A stretch of 64,000 nt of DNA from Candidatus Sumerlaeota bacterium (GTDB lineage: Bacteria > Sumerlaeota > Sumerlaeia > SLMS01 > JAHLLQ01), in NCBI GenBank assembly GCA_030156535.1, contig JASGMJ010000003.1, positions 124,001 to 188,000 on the forward strand. Reading direction: 5' to 3'. The notes under the pieces were generated by a model that was given only the letters and a program-made list of their open reading frames with translations, searched no databases and was not told the DNA's origin. Positions 15,180 through 51,548 of this stretch are shown one piece after another; the stretch's first letter is position 1, and each line of letters starts with the position of its first letter. The position numbers and the translations under genes were made by a program.

Positions 15180-15282
15180 GAAAAGTCCTTTGGAGGGGAC
15201 GGAGTTGCAAAACTCCAATCAGCCTTTCCGGACCGGTGCGGACACGCAAGCAGGAAGTCGGAAAGGGATCGCGGCTGGGGGA

Positions 15283-15394
15283 GCATCCCCCGGTTCCCTG
15301 AGACGGCTCCGGGAGAAGACTTCACTTCCCAGTCGACAGTCTTCAGTTTGGTGGGCCGCGAACGGCGATCTGCGGTCAAGGCATGGCAGACGGA
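15283..15394 (+). repeat. Dispersed intergenic repeat, copy 1
   Basis: About 110 bp sharing aligned blocks with copies at 19868-19987 and 51467-51548 (inverted). The common order is TCCGGGAGA, then TCAGTTTGGTGGG, then CTGCGGTCAAGGCATGG. It lies in the 330-bp gap (15180-15509) between the divergent dipeptidase and helicase genes. No gene is visible in that gap. The left end contains a perfect hairpin GGGGGA-GCA-TCCCCC at 15277-15291. Confidence 0.7.
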
Positions 15395-15509
15395 TTCGCC
15401 CTCGTTCCGCCCCACCACGATGAATCCGGGAGGCTGTTCACCGAGTCTTCGCGCGGCCCTCCCCTCCGTTCTCCTTGCCGTCGGGGCCGGTCGTGGTGAC
15501 TGTTCGCGC

Positions 15510-16841: not shown

Positions 16842-16849
16842 AGCCGGTT

Positions 16850-16975
16850 CTCAGTCGTCAGTCTTCAGTGCCCTCGTGTTTCCGGTTCCACTGGGATTGT
16901 TCCCTTCATCACTGCTCTGTCAGGCGTCCCAGCAGAACTGAAAACCGAGAACTGATAACTGAAAACTACACCAGC
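16850..16975. repeat. TCAGT-rich intergenic element with imperfect inverted ends
   Basis: Left end TCTCAGTCGTCAGTCTTCAG and right end ACTGATAACTGAAAACT carry the same TCAGT-type motif in opposite orientations, giving imperfect inverted ends around ~80 bp. The left end shares 17 of 19 bases with CAGTCGACAGTCTTCAGTT in dispersed repeat copy 1. It may be a partial relative of that family. It lies between the convergent helicase and zapA genes and could also help terminate transcription. Confidence 0.35.
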
Positions 16976-19726: not shown

Positions 19727-19867
19727 GCTTCTCTCTTTCCTGTCGAATAGATCCGTGCAACTCTCGCCGGGCCAGCGTTTTCGCGGTCTCGGCGTTCAAT
19801 GTTCCCTTGCTGGTCCCTGACCGCCGGGGGGGTCAAGACGGAAGGGAAGCACACGGTATCATTGGGT

Positions 19868-19987
19868 GCATCTCGCGGCTCTGTGAGGCGCCTCCCGGAG
19901 AAGTCTCGGGGTCGCGGTTGTCAGTTTTCAGTTTGGTGGCCTGAGGTCCGGACGCTGCGGGCTGCGATCAAGACATGGCGGGACGGA
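19868..19987 (+). repeat. Dispersed intergenic repeat, copy 2
   Basis: About 120 bp aligning to copy 1 from GCATC through CCCGGAGAAG, TTCAGTTTGGTGG and CTGCGATCAAGACATGG to GACGGAA. It occupies the 377-bp gap (19727-20103) between divergent sucD and lpxK and ends ~115 bp before lpxK. I see no gene in the gap. Confidence 0.7.
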
Positions 19988-51256: not shown

Positions 51257-51466
51257 GTTTCTTCACCTCTCCCCTCAAGACGAAGCACCAAGTGTTCCAA
51301 CTGATGTGCCTGCCTTCCGATCCCGTTCATCAAAGGGATTCTGACGCATTGTGGGCTGCACTGTCAAATCGTATCGAACACGGATGCGCCAAGCTTACAG
51401 GGACGAAACGGATAGCAGGGATGGCGCGGTCATCCGGAGGTTGGACAGGACGAGGGCAACGCCGTA

Positions 51467-51548
51467 TGTCATGTCTTGATCGCAGCCTTGCACCCGCCAA
51501 ACTGACAACTGGGAACCCACAACATCTCCCGGAAACATTGTCTGGTAA
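51467..51548 (-). repeat. Dispersed intergenic repeat, copy 3 (inverted)
   Basis: Read on the minus strand it matches copies 1 and 2: TTCCGGGAGA, CAGTTGTCAGTTTGGCGGG, then AGGCTGCGATCAAGACATG. It is shorter in the centre than the others. It lies in the 376-bp gap (51257-51632) between divergent genes; I see no gene there. Confidence 0.7.

Follow-up and report, generated by a model that had tools for sequence, protein, structure and literature searches.

Decayed copies of a MITE very probably account for a dispersed intergenic repeat in a Sumerlaeota genome

Three intergenic blocks near 15.3, 19.9 and 51.5 kb of the window, by which we mean the whole 64,000-nt stretch of Candidatus Sumerlaeota DNA analysed here, are very probably decayed copies of a MITE that was moved in trans by the transposase of an insertion sequence. 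The repeat family was directly established, as were its ends, its target duplications and a gene-bearing relative that agrees with it in the ends and in the length of the duplications. According to the mechanism that we propose, an insertion sequence with matching ends would provide the transposase in trans; this enzyme would cut or copy the element, and insertion at staggered 9-bp cuts would give rise to 9-bp direct repeats. A MITE-like mobile element was one of two readings offered in an earlier note on this DNA, and it agrees with the terminal inverted repeats, the 9-bp duplications, the dispersed copies and the relative described below. This links an orphan intergenic repeat with an insertion element whose ends and 9-bp target are defined, which makes copies recognisable and datable in the class. 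The features assigned in the window are as follows.

15279..15456, + strand: almost full-length MITE copy 1 of the core subfamily; the left terminal repeat spans 15279-15305 and the core 15370-15385, with a degenerate right end at about 15441-15456 (blastn E 9.1e-34 over positions 1-144 of the consensus; aligned with 11 further copies)
15286..15316, + strand: terminal hairpin of copy 1 (alignment, pair counts and consensus fold)
16844..16868, + strand: heptad array (TTNTCRG)n, 2 nt past the helicase stop codon
16938..16962, - strand: inverted heptad array, 3 nt past the stop codon of a convergent zapA-like gene
19864..19985, + strand: MITE copy 2 of the core subfamily; the left terminal repeat spans 19864-19890 and the core 19962-19977, and the right part is gone past about 19985 (blastn E 1.5e-26 over positions 1-108 of the consensus; alignment)
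51436..51523, - strand: MITE copy 3 of the core subfamily, inverted and lacking both ends; the core spans 51470-51485 on the - strand (blastn E 7.5e-12 over positions 47-141 of the consensus; alignment)

One repeat in three spacers

The spacers at 15.3, 19.9 and 51.5 kb hold one common repeat in identical order and polarity, the 51.5 kb copy being inverted, as the earlier note had described from an alignment by eye. Common to all three is CCGGGAGA, then CAGTTTGG-GG, then CTGCG(A/G)TCAAG(A/G)CATG. Pairwise local alignment of the spacers gave scores of 67 (15k/19k), 47 (15k/51k) and 36 (19k/51k), compared to best scores of 30, 30 and 31, respectively, in 1,000 local shuffles per spacer pair, and the likeness is therefore beyond chance. 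The best-kept part of the repeat is the core CTGCGATCAAGACATG; eight sites of the genome carry the core 16-mer CTGCGRTCAAGRCATG with at most one mismatch, and none carries the reversed control. The length of 80-120 bp first given for the blocks was too short, as the element is about 160-270 bp long and bounded by terminal inverted repeats.

A family with defined ends and 9-bp target duplications

A 146-nt core consensus, put together by eye and for the most part from copies that lie outside the window, led to 49 blastn matches in the genome, so that the further copies which the earlier note had made its test were found, with similarity above random. In the 4.33 Mb genome the family comprises at least 12 'core' copies, which align end to end, and about 28 places of a sister subfamily; this second subfamily (46 blastn matches) has ends and heptads in common with the core subfamily and a different middle. 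The copies are dispersed over many contigs, their similarity reaches well outside the heptads, and all 22 copies checked outside the window are intergenic according to a home-made codon-usage gene model.

An intact copy starts with the left end GGGTGCATCTCCCGGAACCGTGAGACGG, which runs on into a hairpin; next are heptads, (TTNTCRG)n, a middle that differs between the subfamilies and the right end. The terminal inverted repeats are imperfect and 27 bp long (GGGTGCATCTCCCGGAnCCG... and, as reverse complement, GGGTGCGTCTCGCGGATTCGG...); the left end reads GGGTGCATCTCCCGGAnCCGTGAGACGG, the right end is the reverse complement of GGGTGCGTCTCGCGGATTCGG, and the two end consensuses are identical at 19 of 27 positions. 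The hairpin has the consensus TCTCCCGGAACCGT-GAG-ACGGTTCCGGGAGA with its 5' arm inside the left terminal repeat, and its stem is partly decayed in copy 1 of the window. Only part of the copies keep both ends and several are truncated. Seven two-ended copies with good end scores measure 156-266 bp, and their immediate 9-bp flanks match at 9, 8, 8, 8, 7, 5 and 1 of 9 positions; the end profiles were built partly from the same copies, with the tested flanks lying outside those profiles. When each left flank was paired with the right flanks of the other copies (42 cross pairings), the mean was 2.5 and the maximum 5. The target-site duplications that the earlier note had suggested looking for are thus present, with a length of 9 bp and at least 7/9 identity in five of the seven two-ended copies; copy C22 shows no target duplication and copy C29 71 kb no more than the 5/9 match. 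In two further copies, C40 and C11 29 kb, inspection by eye suggests duplicated flanks (CCGGACTGG/CCGGACTAG and AGTGAAAGC/ACTGAAAGC); both were left out of the set of seven as their right ends are too worn, the flanks of C40 matching at 7/9 in the automatic scan. A clean target duplication is absent from all three window copies. Most copies look old, with mismatches in the flank duplications and many ends lost.

The element has no plausible gene, the longest frame in the consensus being 52 aa for the core and 83 aa for the second subfamily. Its G+C content of 61-62% (window 64.4%) means that, unlike typical MITEs, it is not AT-rich. The ends of Correia elements are different and their target is TA, whereas the present element has ends that start with GGG, 9-bp duplications and a G+C-rich composition like that of its host. 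Nevertheless, prokaryotic MITEs such as Correia of Neisseria are likewise shorter than about 500 bp, with terminal inverted repeats, direct-repeat flanks, no plausible gene and many intergenic copies, many of them truncated (PMC10969869). As length, terminal repeats, direct repeats, lack of a gene and copy number fit this published description, we filed the element as a MITE. A precedent for a MITE with a tandem-repeat block is BrickBuilt from Porphyromonas gingivalis, which is likewise intergenic, of limited host range and built with such a block between leader and tail; its unit is 23 nt long, whereas the present element has a degenerate 7-nt unit and different ends (PMC4596501). In the literature searched, no description of the present element was found.

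Distribution outside the genome

With the core consensus (blastn E <= 0.001) no match was obtained in 39 other genomes, ranging from the same genus to the same phylum, apart from which two weak matches of 23 and 33 nt were seen, both in distant genomes. The consensus of the second subfamily had no match in 146 other genomes, and the element was not found in the plasmids, phages and viral contigs searched. An exact core 18-mer, searched in 84,980 species, gave four matches, all of which were dismissed as they stand without element context. When 386 genomes were searched with a 21-nt end motif, it was detected in at least 10 other genomes of the same order or class (reversed control 0). Ends of this kind recur across the class, and no whole element was detected in the other genomes searched with the consensus. 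When a congener was compared for an empty site, the helicase alone was common to both, the neighbours differed and synteny was lacking there.

A gene-bearing relative and the search for a transposase

In a genome of the same order (G006), two such ends flank coding frames that are broken by the assembly. Three contigs stop just inside end B, GGGTGCATCTCGCGGATTCGGTGATTTGG, which is followed by the start of a frame (MAHDPAEKKSAREKLEEMM), and two others stop just inside end A, GGGTGCGTCTCCCGGATCCGCGAGACGGTT, which holds, on the opposite strand, the last part of a frame (...NIPAIVALRLCRANEEWDQDFPPMAKTA, stop). Exact 9-bp duplications across contigs were detected as CACTTGATG (C227/C57) and GGGCGGCTG (C167/C275). 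As the contig flanks fit together with exact 9-mers, this genome contains two or more copies of an insertion element, and a 9-bp duplication accompanies each of them. End A agrees with the left end of our family at 25/27 positions and end B with the right end at 23/27, compared to 18/27 for the best unrelated 27-mer in the window. The middle of the element was probably lost in assembly, as happens with multi-copy elements: the shortest of 20 high-numbered contigs of this genome is about 4.7 kb, so a short contig with the element middle is probably absent from the assembly. The two frame pieces, to which Pfam, NCBIfam and plasmid searches assigned no family, presumably belong to one gene, a putative transposase gene. 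A second member of the class (G018) holds a 401-bp MITE (L191, G018:C782:64-464) whose 28-bp terminal repeat is perfect and whose flanks are identical at 8/9 positions, evidence that elsewhere in the class, too, MITEs arose with ends of this type. Several palindromes rich in GGCTGAAGCCGG/CCGGCTTCAGCC-type motifs were also seen inside it.

In the window's own genome no pair of terminal repeats was found around a transposase gene, and Pfam analysis of the genes beside solo ends returned ordinary genes and no transposase partner. The lone DDE_Tnp_1 match in this genome belongs to an unrelated IS5-type element without these ends. Likewise rejected, as unrelated and without a second end, was an end-like motif in another genome (G022), which lies beside what by eye resembles an IS630-type remnant. 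A gene-bearing element was probably once present in the window's genome, and the MITE copies are presumably mostly dead now.

Alternative explanations

The other reading of the earlier note was a shared cis-regulatory or RNA element, such as a riboswitch-like leader or a protein-binding site, located upstream of the helicase gene, lpxK and the glycosyltransferase gene. It would agree with the position of all three window copies between divergent genes, with a consensus left end able to form a strong hairpin and with the good preservation of the core CTGCGATCAAGACATG. The divergent setting is confirmed for these three copies and fails for the family, as 22 other copies lie in 12 tandem, 8 divergent and 2 convergent settings, so that the 'conserved position' of the earlier note is true of the window copies only. 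Folding does not favour this reading either: single strands of the window copies fold no better than shuffles, and an Rfam search of the window returned one tRNA and nothing at the repeat. In the terminal hairpin 80% of cells are paired, and the compensatory changes that were to be looked for amount to a weak covariation of 0.106, slightly above the 0.077 of shuffles but not above slid controls. Together with the 9-bp duplications around copies, the truncations and the absence of the whole element from the other genomes searched, this makes a shared regulatory or RNA element very unlikely. Nothing points to a common regulatory role for the copies; single copies may nevertheless act on neighbouring genes.

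A REP/REPIN-type palindrome that is moved by a RAYT transposase (Y1 tyrosine) comes to mind, given the palindrome of about 31 nt at the left end and three genes for Y1-type transposases in the genome. However, no repeat lies within about 1.5 kb of any of these three genes, and terminal inverted repeats with 9-bp duplications are at odds with Y1 chemistry, which is not known to make a target duplication; this origin is therefore highly improbable. The heptads might also have arisen without any transposon, the arrays being grown by polymerase slippage and the remaining likeness being due to local duplication of spacer DNA. Heptad arrays are indeed very common (the pattern TTNTCRGTTNTCRGTT has 82 occurrences in the genome and none in the reversed control), and many of them stand without terminal repeats. 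As the similarity extends well beyond the heptads, copies are spread over many contigs and the flanks carry 9-bp duplications, we give this explanation hardly any credence. A MITE mobilised in trans thus remains the preferred reading.

Heptad arrays

The array at 16844-16868 is not a MITE copy itself and has the heptad module in common with the MITE. With its inverted counterpart it brackets the 124-bp spacer between the helicase gene and the convergent zapA-like gene, both arrays pointing inward, and the same bracketing layout recurs at L077, L093 and L030. The heptad pattern has no occurrence in the congener or in three other genomes of the family, and arrays are present in a few distant genomes (G056, G053). 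In the retrieved stretches, most of which were chosen for matching the element or the heptad pattern so that shared-heptad statistics partly reflect this choice, 60 of 63 arrays are intergenic, the hairpin arm of the element lies upstream of 12 of the 63, and 34 of the 51 others have a leader like that of the element (background 6%), part of this likeness being half a heptad. A gene edge was found within 30 nt on the 5' side of 26 of the 60 intergenic arrays (20 stops, 6 starts) and on the 3' side of none, gene starts and stops outside the window resting on the home-made gene model.

Small dispersed repeats of 21-27 nt embedded in heptameric arrays were reportedly described by Elhai and colleagues from the repeat-rich genome of Nostoc. 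These are likewise short repeats in heptad arrays, but they are without terminal inverted repeats of the present kind. Direct repeats of the heptad TAACTGA occur in Beggiatoaceae, Cyanobacteria and Bacteroidetes, with no known mechanism of transfer (PMC4679880). Up to rotation and strand this is the same heptad (TCAGTTA on the other strand), and both are intergenic and patchy across phyla; however, TAACTGA repeats often lie beside start codons (PMC4679880), whereas the present arrays favour stop codons. In addition, positions 3 and 6 of TTNTCRG vary, and part of the present arrays lie inside a transposable element. It is conceivable, though we consider it doubtful, that the mobile element carried or seeded the heptad arrays of this genome and that the same mechanism, with heptads carried within a small transposon, could explain the patchiness of TAACTGA/STRR repeats in Cyanobacteria, Beggiatoaceae and others. 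If so, insertion or selection at the ends of transcripts would account for the strict polarity that the arrays show at gene edges. A heptad array within a transposable unit makes the old puzzle of bacterial heptad repeats testable.

At L006/L030 (G000:C62:20661-20794) inverted heptad arrays enclose a core copy and, after it, an inverted duplicate of this copy, with convergent genes on either side. This copy forms a strong hairpin (z -6.8) and is the sole one of the copies folded that does better than shuffles. Finally, another intergenic repeat family was observed beside or within element ends at L108 and L119 (G000:C51 and C23), with the sequence AACCCGCACCCCGAAGG(C/T)GGTGCGATC...GGGATCGCGCCGCTTTCAGGGCGCGGTC...CCCAGGGCGGCGCGCC.
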